Below, piece after piece: positions 1,333-52,962 of a DNA stretch of 64,000 nucleotides. A model generated the notes under the pieces. It ran no database searches. It had not been told where the DNA came from and was given only the letters and a program-made list of their open reading frames with translations. Every line of letters begins with the position of its first letter. The stretch's first letter is position 1. Source of the stretch: Candidatus Promineifilum breve. GTDB taxonomy: Bacteria > Chloroflexota > Anaerolineae > Promineifilales > Promineifilaceae. The stretch is from NCBI RefSeq assembly GCF_900066015.1, contig NZ_LN890655.1, forward strand, positions 124,001-188,000, in the 5' to 3' direction. A program made the position numbers and the translations under genes.

Positions 1333-1380
1333 GGGGCGGGGGAGCAGGGGGGCGGGGGAGCAGGGGAGAAAGAGGGAAAG
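1331..1380. repeat. G-rich short tandem repeat (GGGGAGCA-like)
   Basis: Degenerate tandem units of GGGGAGCAGGGG/GGGGGAGCAGG type lie between nosZ and the Crp/Fnr gene and directly abut the nosZ operator. The same units occur inside two methyltransferase genes at 51278-51313 and 52504-52592, so this is a dispersed family. Confidence 0.7.
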
Positions 1381-5420: not shown

Positions 5421-6004
5421 TGGACAAACCGATCCTGTTCGATTTCCCTTATAGCTTTGACACCGAACGTTTGACCCTTCGCGGCCCGCTGCCCGATGAC
5501 GCCATCCCTCTGCGCGAGGCCGTGTTGGAGTCGCAAGAGGAATTGAAGCCGTGGATGCCCTGGGCGATGAACGTGCTCACCGAGGAGGAGTATCGTGTGC
5601 GCGTGCGCGAGGGACAACTGAAGTTCCTGGCCCGCGAGGATTTGTGGATGATGCTCCTGCTGCGCGGCACGGACACCGTCGTCGGCGGCAGCGGTTTGCA
5701 TCGCATGGATTGGAACGTGCCCAAGTTTGAGATCGGCTACTGGGTGCGCTCGCGCTTCGCCGGGCAGGGCTACATCACCGAGGCGGTCAATGGCCTGACC
5801 GCCTTCGCCTTCGACACGCTGCGGGCCAACCGGGTTGAGATTCGCTGCGACGTCAAGAATACGCGCAGCGCGGCCGTGGCCCGCCGCGCCGGCTACACGT
5901 TGGAAGGGACGTTCCACAACGACGCGCGCGACCACTTCGACCAACTGCGCGATACCTACATCTTCGCCAAAATCCGGGAAGAAGGGGAATTAGCCACGGA
6001 TTAG
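5417..6004 (+). CDS. GNAT-family N-acetyltransferase (RimJ/RimL type)
   Basis: Acetyl-CoA-dependent N-acetyltransferase, 195 residues. The order ERLTLRGPLPDDAIPL (N-terminal beta strand), LLLRGTDTVVGGSGLHRMDW, FEIGYWVRSRFAGQGYITEAVNGL (acetyl-CoA pyrophosphate loop, motif A) and NTRSAAVARRAGYTLEGTF is typical of RimJ/RimL proteins that modify alpha- or side-chain amines of ribosomal proteins or small molecules. It overlaps the glycosidase stop by 4 bases. The last residues (LATD) and the TAG stop are encoded within the outer arm and body of a palindromic repeat that fills the junction with the convergent acyl-CoA synthetase gene, so the native C-terminus may have been replaced. Confidence 0.88.
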   Translation: MMDKPILFDFPYSFDTERLTLRGPLPDDAIPLREAVLESQEELKPWMPWAMNVLTEEEYRVRVREGQLKFLAREDLWMMLLLRGTDTVVGGSGLHRMDWNVPKFEIGYWVRSRFAGQGYITEAVNGLTAFAFDTLRANRVEIRCDVKNTRSAAVARRAGYTLEGTFHNDARDHFDQLRDTYIFAKIREEGELATD

Positions 6005-6083
6005 ACGGATTCAGATGGATTGAAACGGATTAATTTTTTCTTATCCGTGTTCATCCGGGAGCATCCGTTATATCCGTGGCTAA
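5990..6083. repeat. ATCCGT-type dispersed palindromic repeat at a convergent junction
   Basis: Outer arms TTAGCCACGGAT (5990-6001) and ATCCGTGGCTAA (6072-6083) are perfect 12-bp inverted repeats; between them run degenerate copies of ACGGAT and ATCCGT around a TTTTTT centre. It could act as a bidirectional terminator. It overlaps the 3' end of the GNAT gene and touches the acyl-CoA synthetase stop at 6085. Confidence 0.8.
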
Positions 6084-6084
6084 A

Positions 6085-7875
6085 TCATTCCGCCTCGTAC
6101 ATCTCCTCAATCTCGTCCAGGTGCATGTCGCAGATCGCCTTGCGCTTCAGCTTCAGGCTGGGCGTCATCTCGCCGCCTTCGACCGTGAACGGTTTGGATA
6201 GCAAGGTGAATTTGCGCACCTGCTCAACCCGCGCGAATTGCGTGTTCACGTTTTCGTCGATCTCGGCCTGGATCGCCTCGATGACCAGCGGGTGCGTATG
6301 GAGATCTTCGCCGGCGATGCCGTGGGCTTCGGCGAAGCGCAGCGCGGCGTCGGGGTCCAGGGTTAGCAGCGCACACAGATACTTGCGCCCCTCGCCCACG
6401 AGGACGGCCTCGCCCACCAACGACACGTTTTTCAGCGCGGCCTCGATATTGCGCGGGGCGATATTCTTGCCGCCGGAGGTAATAATGATGTCCTTCTTGC
6501 GGCCGACGATGGTCAGAAAGCCCTGCTCATCGAACCGCCCCAGGTCGCCCGAATGGAGCCAGCCGTCGATCAACGTCTCGGCCGTGGCCGCCGGGTCTTT
6601 GTAGTAGCCCATGAAGACGTTCGGCCCGCGCAATAGGATTTCGCCGTCAGGCCCCAGCTTCACCTCGCTGCCCGGCCACGCCTGCCCGGTCGCGCCGAAG
6701 ATGGTCGCTCCCGGCCGGTTGAACGTGGTCGGGCCGCAGCCCTCGGATTGGCCGTAGACCTCGTAGATGGTCACGTCCAGCCCGCTGAAAAACTCCAGGA
6801 TGTCCTTATTGATGGCCGCCGCGCCGGAAACGGCCACCCGGGTGCGACTGAAGCCCAGCAGCGGCTTGATCTTCGAGAAGACGAGGCGGTCGGCCAGGCG
6901 ATATTGGACAGCCAGCGCGCCGCTCGGCTCCTGGCCATGATTGCGGCCTTCCACCACGCGGCGGCCGACCGTCTGCGCCCAGTCGGCGATGCGCCGGCGC
7001 GCACCGTGGGCCTCGCCCAGCCGCTCGCCCACCCGATTGCGAAAGCGTTCCCACACGCCCGGCACGCCAAAGAAGATCGTTGGTTGCACCTCGCGCAAAT
7101 TATCGGGCAGTTGGGTCATCGATTCGGCATAATAGATGGCGAAGCCGACCGTGGCCGCGGTGTGGATGGTGAACATCTGCTCGGCAATGTGGGACAGCGG
7201 CAAGTAGGACAGCAGCACGTCGTTGGGAGTCAACTTGAAGAGCGCCTGCCCGTGATAGGCCGTCGAGGCCAGATTGTGATGGGATAGCATGACGGCCTTG
7301 GGCGGGCCGGTCGTGCCCGAAGTGTAGATTAGGCTCGCCAGGTGTTCCATCTCGATGGCTGCCATCCGCGCGTCGAGTGCAGCCTCGTCGATCGCCGCGC
7401 CACGCGCCAGAAATGCCTCCCAGGTCAGGACCATGGGGTCATCGACGGTCGTGCCGCGCATCATTACCGCCCAGCGCAGATGCGGTAAATCGGCTCGCAC
7501 TTCCTGCACCTTGTGCCATTGGCTCTCGTTCTCGAGGATGATAAGCGGCGCTTCGGAGTGGCCGAGGATGTACTTGACTTCCGACGGGCTATTGGTGGTG
7601 TAGATGCCCGCGCCGACGCCGCCGATCATCATTGCCGCTAACTGACCGATGGCCCACTCCGGCCGATTAAAGCCGAGCATACAGACAATCTGACCCGGCG
7701 CCACGCCGAGAGCGATCATGGCTTTGGCCGCCGTTCGCACCTGAGCGGTGTAGGCTTCCCAGGTGGTGGGAACCCAGGCCGAGCCGATTTTCTCGAAATA
7801 GGCCGGCGCGGCCGGGCGAATGCGGCGGTGTTGCTGGAATCGATCGATGATGCTGTCGCGCTGGGTGGGGGCCAT
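6085..7875 (-). CDS. Long-chain fatty acid--CoA ligase (AMP-forming)
   Basis: Activates fatty acids to acyl-CoA through an acyl-adenylate, at the inner face of the membrane. Features of the ANL superfamily: P-loop LIYTSGTTGPPKAV (A3), AVSGAAAINKDILEFF, YGQSEGCG (A5), LHSGDLGRFDEQGFLTIVGRKKDIIITSGGKNIAPRNIE (A7-A8), and the catalytic-lysine region near the C-terminus. Total of 596 residues fits the FadD15/plant LACS-like subgroup. I choose the ATG at 7875 because AGAGGAGA lies just upstream, although the frame extends 16 codons further. It is convergent with the GNAT gene and follows the phosphoesterase gene at a distance of about 94 bases. Confidence 0.92.
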   Translation of the reverse strand: MAPTQRDSIIDRFQQHRRIRPAAPAYFEKIGSAWVPTTWEAYTAQVRTAAKAMIALGVAPGQIVCMLGFNRPEWAIGQLAAMMIGGVGAGIYTTNSPSEVKYILGHSEAPLIILENESQWHKVQEVRADLPHLRWAVMMRGTTVDDPMVLTWEAFLARGAAIDEAALDARMAAIEMEHLASLIYTSGTTGPPKAVMLSHHNLASTAYHGQALFKLTPNDVLLSYLPLSHIAEQMFTIHTAATVGFAIYYAESMTQLPDNLREVQPTIFFGVPGVWERFRNRVGERLGEAHGARRRIADWAQTVGRRVVEGRNHGQEPSGALAVQYRLADRLVFSKIKPLLGFSRTRVAVSGAAAINKDILEFFSGLDVTIYEVYGQSEGCGPTTFNRPGATIFGATGQAWPGSEVKLGPDGEILLRGPNVFMGYYKDPAATAETLIDGWLHSGDLGRFDEQGFLTIVGRKKDIIITSGGKNIAPRNIEAALKNVSLVGEAVLVGEGRKYLCALLTLDPDAALRFAEAHGIAGEDLHTHPLVIEAIQAEIDENVNTQFARVEQVRKFTLLSKPFTVEGGEMTPSLKLKRKAICDMHLDEIEEMYEAE

Positions 7876-25162: not shown

Positions 25163-25328
25163 TGTTGTCTCCTGTTCAATCGTATGAAGCAATTAAGGAA
25201 ATTGTTCGCGCCTGCCTCGGTAGTCATGCGCTCGAAGATGTTAGCGGACTATAGCGGAGCGGGGCCAATGGTCAAGGGTTATGTCTAATGGCGTGGTGAT
25301 TTTGGCTAAAAGGGTGGCGGCGCGGGGC

Positions 25329-25454
25329 GTAGGCGGAACTTCCAGTTCCGCGCGGGGTGGGCACGGAGTGGAGCTGGAAGCTCTACCAGTGGTGTAGTGC
25401 GGAACTTCCAGTTCCGCGTGTGGGATGGGGAGTGGAGCTGGAAGCTCCACCTAC
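25329..25454. repeat. Cluster of four GGAACTTCC/GGAGCTGGAAGC palindromic units
   Basis: Units at 25329-25351, 25369-25386, 25394-25417 and 25432-25454 alternate between GCGGAACTTCCAGTTCCGC and GTGGAGCTGGAAGCTCCAC types, bordered by GTAGG or CCTAC. The same units occur at 47970-48061. The cluster ends 3 bases from the stop of the InsA-like gene and spans most of the gap to the ATPase promoter side. Confidence 0.85.
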
Positions 25455-25457
25455 GTG

Positions 25458-47196: not shown

Positions 47197-47973
47197 ATGC
47201 CAAAAGACAAAGAACGCCTCGACATCCTCCTCGTCGATCGCGGCCTGGTAGAGACCCGCGCCCGCGCCCGCGCCCACATCATGGCCGGCGAGGTCACCGT
47301 CAACGGCCAACGGATCGACAAGGCGGGCACGGCCGTCGCCCGCGACGCGCTTATCGAGCTGGCGACGCCGCTGCCCTACGTCAGTCGCGGCGGCTACAAG
47401 CTGGCCGGGGCGCTCGACGGCTTCGGTGTGGCCGTGGCCGGGCGCGTCTGTGCCGACGTGGGGGCCTGCACCGGCGGTTTCACCGACGTGCTGCTACAGC
47501 GCGGCGCGGCCCGCGTCTATGCCATTGACGTGGGCCAGGGCCAACTTGATTGGAAGCTGCGCCAGGATGAGCGGGTCACGGTCATGGAGCGGACGAACGC
47601 CCGCTATCTGGATGCGCTGGCCGAGCCGATTGACCTGGTGGTGATCGACGTCTCGTTCATTTCGCTGAAGCTGATCCTGCCCGCCGTCCGCAAGTGGCTG
47701 GCCGCTACGGGCGAGGTGATCGCTCTCATCAAGCCGCAATTCGAGGCCGGGCCGGAGTCGGTCGGCAAGGGGGGCATCGTGCGCGATCCGGCGGTGCATC
47801 GGGCGGTGCTGGTCGATTTGTTGGGCTGGGCGGCCGCCGCCGGGTGGGCAGTCGGCGGGCTGCGACGCTCGTCGATCGCCGGGACGGATGGCAATGTGGA
47901 ATTCCTGGTGTGGCTACGGCCGGGGGAGTCGTTGCTTGATCATGCCGATCTAATTGCGACTTCCCTGTCGTAG
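47197..47973 (+). CDS. tlyA: TlyA family rRNA 2'-O-methyltransferase (hemolysin-like)
   Basis: 2'-O-ribose methyltransferase of 16S and 23S rRNA, 258 residues. The S4 RNA-binding domain ([33 protein letters not shown]) is followed by an FtsJ-like fold with the SAM motif [19 protein letters not shown] and catalytic KDKE elements (Lys, Asp in IDVSF, Lys in IKPQFEAG, Glu). I use ATG 47197; upstream codons fall in a repeat. The stop TAG is part of the palindromic repeat that starts at 47970. Confidence 0.9.
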
Positions 47974-48061
47974 GTGGAGCTTCCAGCTCCACCCCTTGCC
48001 CAACGTGCGGAACTGGAAGTTCCGCCTACGACCAGCGCGCGGAACTGGAAGTTCCGCCTAC
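47970..48061. repeat. Cluster of three GGAACTTCC/GGAGCTTCC palindromic units
   Basis: Units at 47970-47993 (GTAGGTGGAGCTTCCAGCTCCACC), 48007-48029 and 48039-48061 (both GCGGAACTGGAAGTTCCGCCTAC, identical) lie between the convergent ends of tlyA and the molybdopterin-fold gene. Same family as 25329-25454. The first supplies the tlyA stop codon. Confidence 0.88.
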
Positions 48062-48071
48062 GACAAGCGGC

Positions 48072-48599: not shown

Positions 48600-50402
<1,803 letters not shown>

Positions 50403-50405
<3 letters not shown>

Positions 50406-50475
50406 TGGGTAGTGGATAGTGGGCAGTGGACAGTCTGCCCACTACCCACTACCCACTGCCCACTGTCCACTACCC
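50403..50475. repeat. TAGTGGG tandem and inverted repeat after lepA
   Basis: Tandem TAGTGGGTAGTGGATAGTGG units form a left arm; the right half CTGCCCACTACCCACTACCCACTG is nearly its complement, so a long hairpin is possible. The first TAG is the lepA stop codon. The element ends 16 bases before the methyltransferase ATG, so it may influence that gene's leader. Confidence 0.82.
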
Positions 50476-50491
50476 GTTAAAGAGGAATGCG

Positions 50492-51703
50492 ATGAGACAA
50501 GTTCTCCACGCCTGCCCGGCCTGTGGCGCGGCCGGGATGGCTGTTTTCTATGAAGTGCGTGCGGTGCCCGTCAACAGCGTGTTGCTGGTGACCAGCCGCG
50601 ATGAGGCCATGAACTTCCAGACCGGCGATATTGCCCTGGCCGCCTGCCCGGCTTGCGGTTTTATCAGCAACATCGCCTTCGATGAGGCCCTGACCCAATA
50701 CACCGCCCAATATGAGGCCACGCAGGGCTATTCGCCGACGTTCAACAAGTTCCACAAGGCGCTGGCCCAGGACCTGATCGACCGCTTCGACCTGCATGGC
50801 AAGGACATCATCGAGCTCGGCTGCGACAAGGGCGATTTCATCACCATGTTGGTCGAGATGGGCGACAACCGCGGCGTGGGCTTCGACCCGGCCTACGTGC
50901 CCGGCCGCCATCCCAGCCCGGCGGCCGACCGGCTGACCTTCATCGCCGACTTCTACGGCGAACAGTACGCCGACTACCGCGCCGACTTCATCTGCTGCAA
51001 GATGACGCTGGAGCACATCCCTGACGTGGGCCGCTTCGTCGCCACGGTGCGCCGCTCCATCGGCGACAACGGCGACACGGTAGTTTTCTTCCAGATCCCC
51101 AATGCCCGCTACGTCCTGTGCGACGTGGCCTTCTGGGATATCTACTATGAGCACTGCTCCTATTTCACCAAAGGCTCGCTGGCGCGGCTGTTCCGGGCCA
51201 ACGGGTTTGAGGTGAAGAATCTGTGGACGGCCTATGATGATCAATATTTGATGATTGAGGCGCGGCCGGGGCAAAGCGCAGGGGAGCAGGGGAGAAAGGG
51301 AGCAGGGGAGGAAGAGCTTGACGGTGAGGAGAGTGTAACCGAGACGATGGAAATGGTACGCTACTTCGTGGAGCACTATGAAGCCAAACGTAACGAGTGG
51401 CGGGCGGCGCTGGCCGGGTGGCAGGCGGCGAGCAAGAAGGTCGTCCTGTGGGGCGGCGGCTCCAAGGGCGTGGCCTTCCTGACCACGCTGGGCCAATCGC
51501 TCGACGACATCGCCTATGCCGTGGACATCAACCCCATCAAGACCGGCACCTTCATGGCCGGCACGGGCCAGGAGATCGTCGCGCCCGCTTTCCTCAAAGA
51601 ATATCAACCCGATGTGGTGATCATTATGAATCCGGTGTACCGCGAGGAGATCAGCCGCGACCTGCAAGCGATGGGTTTAGCGCCGGAAATTCGGACGCTG
51701 TAA
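50492..51703 (+). CDS. Methyltransferase with N-terminal zinc motif and C-terminal sugar C-methyltransferase domain
   Basis: Class I SAM-dependent methyltransferase of 403 residues, probably acting on nucleotide sugars (NovU/TylC3-like architecture). N-terminal CPACGAAG and ACPACGF form a zinc site; the SAM core is IIELGCDKGDFITMLVEMGDNRGVGFDPAY and CCKMTLEHIPDV; the C-terminal domain is KKVVLWGGGSKGVAFLTTLG and YAVDINPIKTG. A repeat-encoded Gly/Glu/Lys stretch (GQSAGEQGRKGAGEEELD) lies in the linker between the two. ATG 50492 has AGAGGAAT upstream. A paralogue follows at 51742. Confidence 0.87.
   Translation: MRQVLHACPACGAAGMAVFYEVRAVPVNSVLLVTSRDEAMNFQTGDIALAACPACGFISNIAFDEALTQYTAQYEATQGYSPTFNKFHKALAQDLIDRFDLHGKDIIELGCDKGDFITMLVEMGDNRGVGFDPAYVPGRHPSPAADRLTFIADFYGEQYADYRADFICCKMTLEHIPDVGRFVATVRRSIGDNGDTVVFFQIPNARYVLCDVAFWDIYYEHCSYFTKGSLARLFRANGFEVKNLWTAYDDQYLMIEARPGQSAGEQGRKGAGEEELDGEESVTETMEMVRYFVEHYEAKRNEWRAALAGWQAASKKVVLWGGGSKGVAFLTTLGQSLDDIAYAVDINPIKTGTFMAGTGQEIVAPAFLKEYQPDVVIIMNPVYREEISRDLQAMGLAPEIRTL
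51278..51313. repeat. G-rich short repeat, in frame in the first methyltransferase
   Basis: GGGGAGCAGGGGAGAAAGGGAGCAGGGG-type units are read in frame as Gly, Glu, Gln and Lys at the linker after the SAM core. Same family as 1331-1380 and 52504-52592. Confidence 0.8.
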
Positions 51704-51741
51704 AGCGACCGCCGCCGACCGCTGCCTAACGACCTACAATT

Positions 51742-52962
51742 ATGAACAATATCCCCGTCTGCCCCGAATCCGAGGTCATCCCTCTCATCGAAATGAAGCA
51801 GGTGCCGGTACACTGCAACGTATTGTGGCCGAGCCGCGAGGCAGCGCGCAATGCTCCGCGCGGCGACATTCACCTCGGCTACCTGCCGGGCTGCGGCCAT
51901 ACCTATAACCTGGCCTTCGACCCGTCGCTGATGGAATACACCCAGGAGTATGAGAACTCCCTCCACTTCTCGCCCCGCTTCCAGGAGTACGCCACGGCCC
52001 TGGCTGATGGGCTGGTCGAGAAGTACGATCTACGCGACAAGGACATCGTCGAGATCGGCGCGGGCAAGGGCGACTTCCTGATCATGCTCTGCGCCCTACA
52101 GGGCAACCGGGGTTGGGGCTACGACCCCAGCTACGTGCCCGATGAGGGCTACACCGCGCCCAACGTGACCTTTGTCCAGGACTTCTACACCGAGAAGTAC
52201 ATCGACCAACCGGCCTATCTCATCGTCTGTCGCCATGTGCTGGAGCACATCCCCGATCCCGATGCCTTCATCTCTCAGGTGCGCCGGGCAGTGGGCCAGC
52301 AGCACGCCGTCGTCTTCTTTGAGGTTCCCAATTCCCTCTGGACGCTACGCCGGGGCGGCATCTGGGACGTGATCTACGAGCACTGCTCCTTCTTCAGCCC
52401 CTTCTCGCTGGCCCACCTGTTCCGCCGCCACGGGTTCGACGTTTTGGCCGTCAACGAAGTGTTCGGCGGGCAGTTTGTGACGATAGAGGCTGTGCCGGCG
52501 GAAGCAGGGGGGCAGGGGAGCGGGGGAGCAGGGGAGCAGCCCTCTGCAACGACTTCTTTCTCCCCTGCTCTCCTGTCCCCCTTCTCCCCTGCCGATTTAG
52601 ACGCCCTTACCGCCGACGCCTACGCTTTTGCCGAAAGCTACCGCGCCAAGCGTCAGGAGTGGCAAGAACGGCTGGCTACGCTGGCCGCCACAGGCCAGCG
52701 CGGCGTAGTCTGGGGGGCCGGCTCCAAGGGCGTCACCTTCCTGAACGCCATGGCTGCCGGCGACGAGATCGCCGCCGTGGTCGACATTAATCCGCGCAAG
52801 CAGGGCAAGTACGTGGCGGGGACGGGCCAGCGCATCGTCGCCCCGGCCGAACTGGCCGAACTGCGGCCCGACTTCGTGATCATTATGAACGCCAATTACC
52901 GCGAGGAGATTGGGCGGATGTTGGCGGAGGTCGGAGTAGACGCCCAGATTATGGTGGCCTGA
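51742..52962 (+). CDS. Second methyltransferase paralogue, N-terminal zinc site degraded
   Basis: Paralogue of the previous protein, 406 residues, with SAM core IVEIGAGKGDFLIMLCALQGNRGWGYDPSYVP and CRHVLEHIPDPDAF, and the C-terminal domain RGVVWGAGSKGVTFLNAMA...AVVDINPRKQGKY. The N-terminal Cys pairs of the zinc site are largely lost (only Cys51 or so and a few others in the first 60 residues). A longer repeat-encoded stretch rich in Gly, Glu, Ser and Pro sits at the same linker point as in the first paralogue. Probably specialised for a different sugar. Both genes run in an operon. Confidence 0.85.
   Translation: MNNIPVCPESEVIPLIEMKQVPVHCNVLWPSREAARNAPRGDIHLGYLPGCGHTYNLAFDPSLMEYTQEYENSLHFSPRFQEYATALADGLVEKYDLRDKDIVEIGAGKGDFLIMLCALQGNRGWGYDPSYVPDEGYTAPNVTFVQDFYTEKYIDQPAYLIVCRHVLEHIPDPDAFISQVRRAVGQQHAVVFFEVPNSLWTLRRGGIWDVIYEHCSFFSPFSLAHLFRRHGFDVLAVNEVFGGQFVTIEAVPAEAGGQGSGGAGEQPSATTSFSPALLSPFSPADLDALTADAYAFAESYRAKRQEWQERLATLAATGQRGVVWGAGSKGVTFLNAMAAGDEIAAVVDINPRKQGKYVAGTGQRIVAPAELAELRPDFVIIMNANYREEIGRMLAEVGVDAQIMVA
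52504..52592. repeat. G-rich repeat and its inverted copy in the second methyltransferase
   Basis: GGCAGGGGAGCGGGGGAGC-type units at 52510-52542 face an inverted CTCCCCTGCTCTCCTGTCCCCC copy at 52561-52592, so a long hairpin is possible inside the gene while the frame stays open. Same family as 1331-1380. Confidence 0.82.

Follow-up and report, generated by a model that had tools for sequence, protein, structure and literature searches.

Octamer hairpin repeats in the linkers of two methyltransferase paralogues of Candidatus Promineifilum breve: probable separate entries of a high-copy family

Introduction

Two neighbouring genes of Candidatus Promineifilum breve, MT1 and MT2, encode paralogous methyltransferases, and both carry a G-rich repeat that is predicted to be read as part of the protein at the same linker. 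How did a repeat of one kind come to lie in frame at one place in two paralogues? A first-pass annotation had offered two answers, either an insertion that happened before the duplication and later diverged, or a linker that acts as a hot spot, and it regarded the locus as a rare case of a dispersed repeat shaping protein linkers. We analysed the locus within the surrounding 64-kb stretch of DNA (the window), in the rest of the genome and in relatives. We consider it very likely that the repeats belong to a high-copy hairpin family that enters genes in frame as well as spacers, and that MT1 and MT2 were hit separately.

Results and Discussion

A G-rich octamer repeat in the linkers of MT1 and MT2

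The genes and the repeat elements of the window are located as follows:

50492..51703, + strand: MT1, C-methyltransferase-like SAM enzyme with Methyltransf_23 and Methyltransf_14, 403 aa
51278..51310, + strand: single G-rich arm in MT1, four octamer units (GCAGGGGAGCAGGGGAGAAAGGGAGCAGGGGAG), in frame, residues 263-273
51742..52962, + strand: MT2, paralogue of MT1, 406 aa
52504..52536, + strand: G-arm of the MT2 hairpin, period 8, opening residues 255-284
52537..52559, + strand: loop of the MT2 hairpin, 23 nt
52560..52592, + strand: C-arm of the MT2 hairpin, the inverted arm, encoding the SFSPALLSPFSPA region of MT2
1333..1368, + strand: third array of the same octamer family, not classed as genic

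The start of MT1 was set at the ATG at 50492, and an earlier opening of the ORF is possible. The two proteins are 42% identical. Pfam matches above cut-off place Methyltransf_23 at residues 88-241 of MT1 and 94-236 of MT2, and Methyltransf_14 at 282-394 and 295-397, respectively. Both copies therefore follow the SAM domain and precede the C-terminal domain, in frame and at the same linker, exactly at the coordinates first given for them. Judged by these matches, MT1 and MT2 appear to show only part of the three-domain C-methyltransferase layout: the SAM domain (PF13489) and the C-methyltransferase C-terminal domain (PF08484) are present, and PF08421, which we take to be the putative zinc-binding N-terminal domain of C-methyltransferases, gave no Pfam match in either protein at E 0.001. 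An NCBIfam search returned no family for MT1 or MT2. The best solved relatives of MT2 are sugar 3-C-methyltransferases, e.g. TcaB9.

The repeat unit of both elements is the octamer GCAGGGGA, and their in-frame reading gives ...QSAGEQGRKGAGEEEL... in MT1 and ...AEAGGQGSGGAGEQPSATTSFSPALLSPFSPA... in MT2. For MT1 the predicted tryptic peptide spanning the insert is GAGEEELDGEESVTETMEMVR. Within the window GNAGGGGAGNAGGGGAG finds 13 matches with up to three mismatches compared to 2.7 expected, a number reached in none of 100 shuffles. The MT2 element, spanning residues 255-284, folds into one hairpin with a DNA folding energy of -29.5 kcal/mol (shuffles -19.0 +/- 2.6, z -4.0), which bears out the proposal that this copy pairs with its inverted partner while still coding. 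An AlphaFold model of MT2 based on 36 sequences has a mean pLDDT of 90.9; its sole segment below 50, residues 258-278, lies inside the element, and the insert is predicted to be disordered.

Repeats of other types were also seen in the window. A strong hairpin of another family, with AGTGGGC/AGTGGTC heptamers, occupies 50402-50480 between lepA and MT1, and from an upstream GTG the MT1 ORF can be read open into it. REP-like palindromes (GGAACTTCCAGTTCC / GGAACTGGAAGTTCC) are located at 25320-25455 and 47969-48069 as inverted copies 22 kb apart, with a 32-bp tandem of the palindrome unit at 48000-48069, and ACGGATT-type units form an inverted repeat at 5987-6086.

Copy number and architecture of the repeat family

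The repeat is dispersed, as had been assumed: a genome-wide count of the 14-mer GGGGAGCAGGGGAG gave 263 copies (119 and 144 on the two strands), and its reversed control is absent. Among other members of the genus we counted 29 copies in G033, 21 in G035, 51 in G037 and 24 in G039, and none in G034, G036 and G038, which are 68, 71 and 98% complete. In a sample of 400 genomes of the phylum any copy of the 14-mer was found in 30, with at most six per genome outside the genus. High copy number is thus restricted to the genus.

Arms were searched with a 17-mer, allowing up to two mismatches, in 79 stretches covering 1.56 of 5.03 Mb (60 stretches of contig C1, 320 kb of C2 and all of C3). The C1 stretches lie mostly around listed matches, together with two contiguous 200-kb blocks. 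This census yielded 169 arms, 100 of them exactly 33 nt long, and no match to the reversed 17-mer. The arms make up 118 elements, two thirds of which (78) come from stretches picked for holding the repeat: 51 are hairpins and 67 are single arms (35 lone G, 32 lone C). Opposite-strand arms within 150 bp of each other always follow the order G-arm then C-arm (51/51). Arms mostly of 33 nt in G-first order amount to terminal inverted repeats, as in MITE, and the typical hairpin element measures 74-90 bp. Unit number per arm ranges from 2 to 11 with a sharp peak at four (84 of 170 arms of the octamer family) and very few arms of two or three units.

All six reading frames of the octamer are free of stop codons. 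Arms are stop-free in 168 of 169 cases for each frame of the C strand, and in 167, 160 and 164 of 169 for the frames of the G strand. Since three units amount to 24 nt, every frame reads one eight-residue cycle, AGEQGSRG on the G strand and SPAPLLPC on the C strand.

We propose that a family of short inverted-repeat elements made of tandem GCAGGGGA octamers would have spread through this Promineifilum-type Chloroflexota genome. As the unit lacks stops and gives the same eight-residue cycle in every frame, a copy that lands in an exposed loop or linker and keeps the frame would be readable and survive, other copies being lost, and MT1 and MT2 would have been hit separately in the same tolerant linker. 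The copies would have moved rather than grown locally, the in-frame pattern would stem from purifying selection and not from targeting, and the proteins presumably keep their function despite the inserts.

It is unlikely that the arrays are instead immobile and grew by local slippage from short G-rich seeds, their sequence being favoured by polymerase or repair. The variable unit number, the independent mutation of units, the coexistence of several unit families of 7-9 nt and the lack of a visible fixed element boundary or target duplication are all compatible with local growth. However, slippage yields direct repeats and not an inverted second arm in fixed order (51/51), and it accounts poorly for one octamer at more than 100 unlinked sites and for an arm length peaking sharply at four units with so few arms of two or three.

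Concerning movement, the reading we prefer, no mobilising enzyme was found in a comparison of Y1 transposases (PF01797), which occur in genus members with and without the repeat. The REP-associated Y1 transposase is disfavoured as mobiliser, showing no correlation across the eight genus members. No target-site duplication was readable between diverged species, and the hairpin lengths, which are evenly spread modulo 3 (5/6/8 in genes, 11/9/12 outside), gave no signal of a fixed one.

Related unit families and the G-quadruplex question

The genome holds several families of 7-9 nt units that share the hairpin layout. Arm order is fixed in each family (6/6, 15/15, 21/21, 29/29, 27/27, 8/8 and 11/11), where AGTGGGC and AGTGGTC matches overlap so that their counts are not independent. 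Arms of four units are the commonest in the 8-mer family and in most 7-mer families, and arms of three units in the two 9-mer families; the mode is four for ACGAATG and three for GAAATCTGT and CTGCGTAAT, and TAGGTGC has eight arms of five units and seven of four. The reversed-unit control of AGTGGGC was not clean. An arm length of about 27-36 nt is common to families with and without G-tracts. Among comparison hairpin families 1 of 53 GAAATCTGT elements and 0 of 11 TAGGTGC elements are genic; the count for the F3 family (GGGTGGC), 35 of 83, was set aside, since much of it seems to consist of coding sequence that matches by chance. Two families meet in a MoeA-PBP fusion (G000 C1:1970495, L135 9539-11647), where one loop carries an GCAGGGGA hairpin and another loop an ACGAATG hairpin; the latter is in frame and reads EEMTNDELRMTNEEKKQGDEPSSFVIRHSSFVIP, and a similar stretch is present in G039.

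It is possible, if somewhat doubtful, that an entire class of mobile hairpins is present in the genus, comprising at least eight families of 7-9 nt units with arms of about 27-36 nt in fixed order, and that one common mechanism reads arm length and orientation rather than sequence. Stop-free units would then generate disordered enzyme loops genome-wide, and which strand is read would be decided by selection on the peptide.

A G-quadruplex role has been proposed for the heptamers of Xanthomonas and Nostoc in the excerpted text of PMC4692102. We regard it as very unlikely that the elements described here are kept for G-quadruplexes acting on DNA or mRNA, with coding being incidental. The modal arm does have four G-tracts, ViennaRNA places one quadruplex in each G-arm when quadruplexes are allowed, and the excerpts of PMC4692102 report the same four-unit preference. 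But arm length is similar in families lacking G-tracts, and for this reason the quadruplex was set aside as the rule behind four units. Furthermore, the full MT2 element favours the hairpin in ViennaRNA even with quadruplexes allowed, and the orientation of the G strand is even between co-directional genes (12:12).

Elements inside genes

An element was counted as genic in frame if the frame is open through it and coding is found on both sides, as judged by a hexamer score trained on the long ORFs of the sample; genes were called by a simple in-house procedure, not taken from standard annotation. On this basis 45 of the 118 elements, in 35 ORFs, are genic and in frame; of the 40 elements in contiguous, unpicked stretches 14 qualify. 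The methyltransferase pair is thus not a rare case, contrary to the first-pass annotation. The coding fraction of the sample is 89% by the in-house calls: elements are less frequent in genes than chance would give, although a good number of copies are tolerated there. Where strong coding is present on both sides of one strand, 38 of 42 elements keep the frame and 4 do not (p 2e-14 against 1/3). A lone G arm at G000 C1:2307956 has strong coding on both sides in different frames, perhaps because a gene is broken there or because two genes adjoin.

A Pfam scan took in 32 of the 35 ORFs (all except O08, O13 and O30). Copies do occur in other interdomain linkers: in addition to MT1 and MT2, a clear position between two domains was seen in a SpoU methylase, a MiaB-type methylthiotransferase, an SDR/MaoC fusion and a PUA/methyltransferase, which makes six elements. 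A restriction of the inserts to sites between domains was rejected, as ten elements are inside a domain match above cut-off: ABC ATPase, ThiD, YlmD-type oxidoreductase, MoeA, TrpE, PreP (two), DUF2142, DmpA-type peptidase and DNA polymerase B. For elements inside catalytic domains an effect on function is possible. The best PDB relative is gapped at the insert in all six proteins tried. Some sister species have clean loops at the TrpE, MiaB-type, MoeA and PreP sites, and the element or a decayed form of it is found at the same place in G035 for MoeA, in G039 for the second PreP site, in G038 for TrpE and in G037 for the MiaB-type protein.

Lone genic arms are read 22 times in the G sense and 4 times in the C sense, compared to 12:12 between co-directional genes (Fisher p 0.015). 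Although the numbers are small, this bias suggests selection on the peptide, favouring the hydrophilic AGEQGSRG over SPAPLLPC, more than selection on transcription.

Is the insert a useful linker that was recruited in the methyltransferase pair for adaptive lengthening? Both paralogues were hit, and the preference of lone genic arms for the hydrophilic reading points in the same direction. We nevertheless hold recruitment to be quite improbable: the same peptide occurs in 35 reading frames of diverse types, the pair of sister species lacks the insert, and the insert is predicted to be disordered, so that tolerance explains the pattern without any benefit.

Comparison with known repeat systems

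Short-unit tandem repeats are also dispersed in the genomes of filamentous bacteria: heptamer repeats of cyanobacteria (STRR) were reportedly described by Mazel in 1990, STRR in rnpB are said to have been described by Vioque in 1997, and small dispersed repeats reportedly by Elhai in 2008. The octamer differs from STRR in that its 14-mer was present, as a single copy, in just one of three cyanobacterial genomes tested, and Cyanobacteria were dismissed as its source.

According to excerpts of PMC2229807 and PMC10969869, Rickettsia palindromic elements (RPE) are similar in being short inverted repeats that occupy spacers and also, in frame, a wide range of unrelated conserved genes, where the RPE peptide is tolerated in the host protein. 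In the same excerpts RPE are about 105-150 bp long, have family-specific sequences and belong to obligate intracellular Alphaproteobacteria, whereas the elements here are typically 74-90 bp, consist of tandem octamers and reside in a 5-Mb Chloroflexota genome; the likeness drawn here is one of behaviour. The G-rich heptamers of Xanthomonas and Nostoc (GGGAATC and GGGGA(C/T)T) resemble the octamer arrays, in the portions cited of PMC4692102, as short G-rich tandem units with a clear four-unit preference, and close convergent pairs of the Xanthomonas heptamers form inverted repeats, as do 51/51 convergent pairs here. In Xanthomonas they are stated there to be 89-93% intergenic and under-represented in genes, in contrast to 45/118 elements genic in frame in this genome, where moreover the unit is an octamer and arm length is independent of G-tracts. 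In behaviour the family is closest to RPE, in build to the short-unit tandem hairpins of Xanthomonas.

Two further systems share single features. Borg elements, as excerpted from PMC9879509, have genic tandem repeats creating disordered protein segments; their genic unit lengths are divisible by three, unlike the 8-nt unit with all frames open and an inverted second arm. PARCEL elements (PMC2996958) are palindromic DNA encoding a repeated peptide, but the peptide there forms tandem protein repeats of 25 residues in ORFs of unassigned function, compared to scattered in-frame inserts in housekeeping enzymes here.

In the open-licence literature the octamer string gave an unrelated occurrence only, none of the matches listed for Promineifilum has repeats as its topic by title, and we found no report of gene-inserted hairpins in Chloroflexota. 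The excerpted text of a REP survey (PMC12306157) names three Chloroflexota species, none of the genus Promineifilum, and in the excerpts compared frequent in-frame gene invasion by palindromic repeats concerns mainly Rickettsia (PMC2229807, PMC10969869).

The phenomenon is larger than the methyltransferase pair: the hairpin family has entered dozens of genes in frame, with inserts predicted to add floppy loops. A third of this Chloroflexota genome sequence already offers at least 45 in-frame cases. They affect well-studied enzymes whose relatives have been solved, and insert-free sister species provide filled and empty versions of one protein. It thereby becomes testable whether new protein segments supplied by selfish repeats are neutral, do harm or are of use, and what moves short-unit hairpin repeats.

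When the inserts reached the methyltransferase pair

Of 49 loci with a good relative, 35 contain both paralogues; they come from Deltaproteobacteria, Planctomycetota, Cyanobacteria, Ruegeria and Chloroflexota, and a few of the 49 are duplicates, the same place having been taken from each of two collections. The tandem pair is thus old and multi-phylum. In most homologues the aligned linker stretch measures about 45-50 aa. It has 48 aa in clean genus members, in which the insert is without counterpart, compared to 55 aa for MT1 and 68 aa for MT2 of this genome. As some distant homologues have long MT2 linkers lacking the repeat peptide (62 aa in L080, 60 aa in L093), length alone is not diagnostic.

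Clean linkers were found for MT1 in G033, G036 and G037 and for MT2 in G033, G036 and G038. The MT2 linker of G035 holds a degenerate array (G-arm) of the GCAGGGGA octamer, that of G039 (L092) a different inverted repeat with the unit CGGCCGT, and that of G037 is long and repeat-free. A 20-mer of the CGGCCGT-unit repeat occurs five times each in G039 and G037 and in none of the other six genus members. In a six-gene tree, made with the insert stretches masked and with within-genus supports of 68-100, some of them weak, this genome (G000) groups with G037 and G039, and G035 with G036. Given the clean MT2 linkers of G036, G038 and G033, two separate gains would be simpler on this modestly supported tree than one gain and at least three losses. 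These observations support the hot-spot idea, in that the methyltransferase linker behaves as a tolerated site in repeated use.

The other original idea, an old shared insert predating the MT1/MT2 duplication and diverging later, is favoured by the shared linker position, but the ancient pair lacks the insert across phyla (35/49 loci) and the inserts occur within the genus alone, where most members lack them; the clean outgroup linkers rule out an insertion before the duplication, and we give this reading practically no chance. An assembly or sequencing artefact, repeats being a known cause of misassembly, is just as implausible, as the genome is in three contigs, reading frames are kept and the same family appears at some of the same gene sites in other assemblies (MT2 and MoeA of G035, PreP of G039).

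The CGGCCGT-unit repeat also matches in PreP-aligned stretches of G039 (C866) and G037 (C241). A cluster of PMT-type membrane glycosyltransferases at G000 C1:2044202-2057444 (L136) represents another case of paralogues hit at one loop: its four ORFs contain five hairpins, and in three the insert comes after a similar position of the PMT_2 profile (about 89-94).
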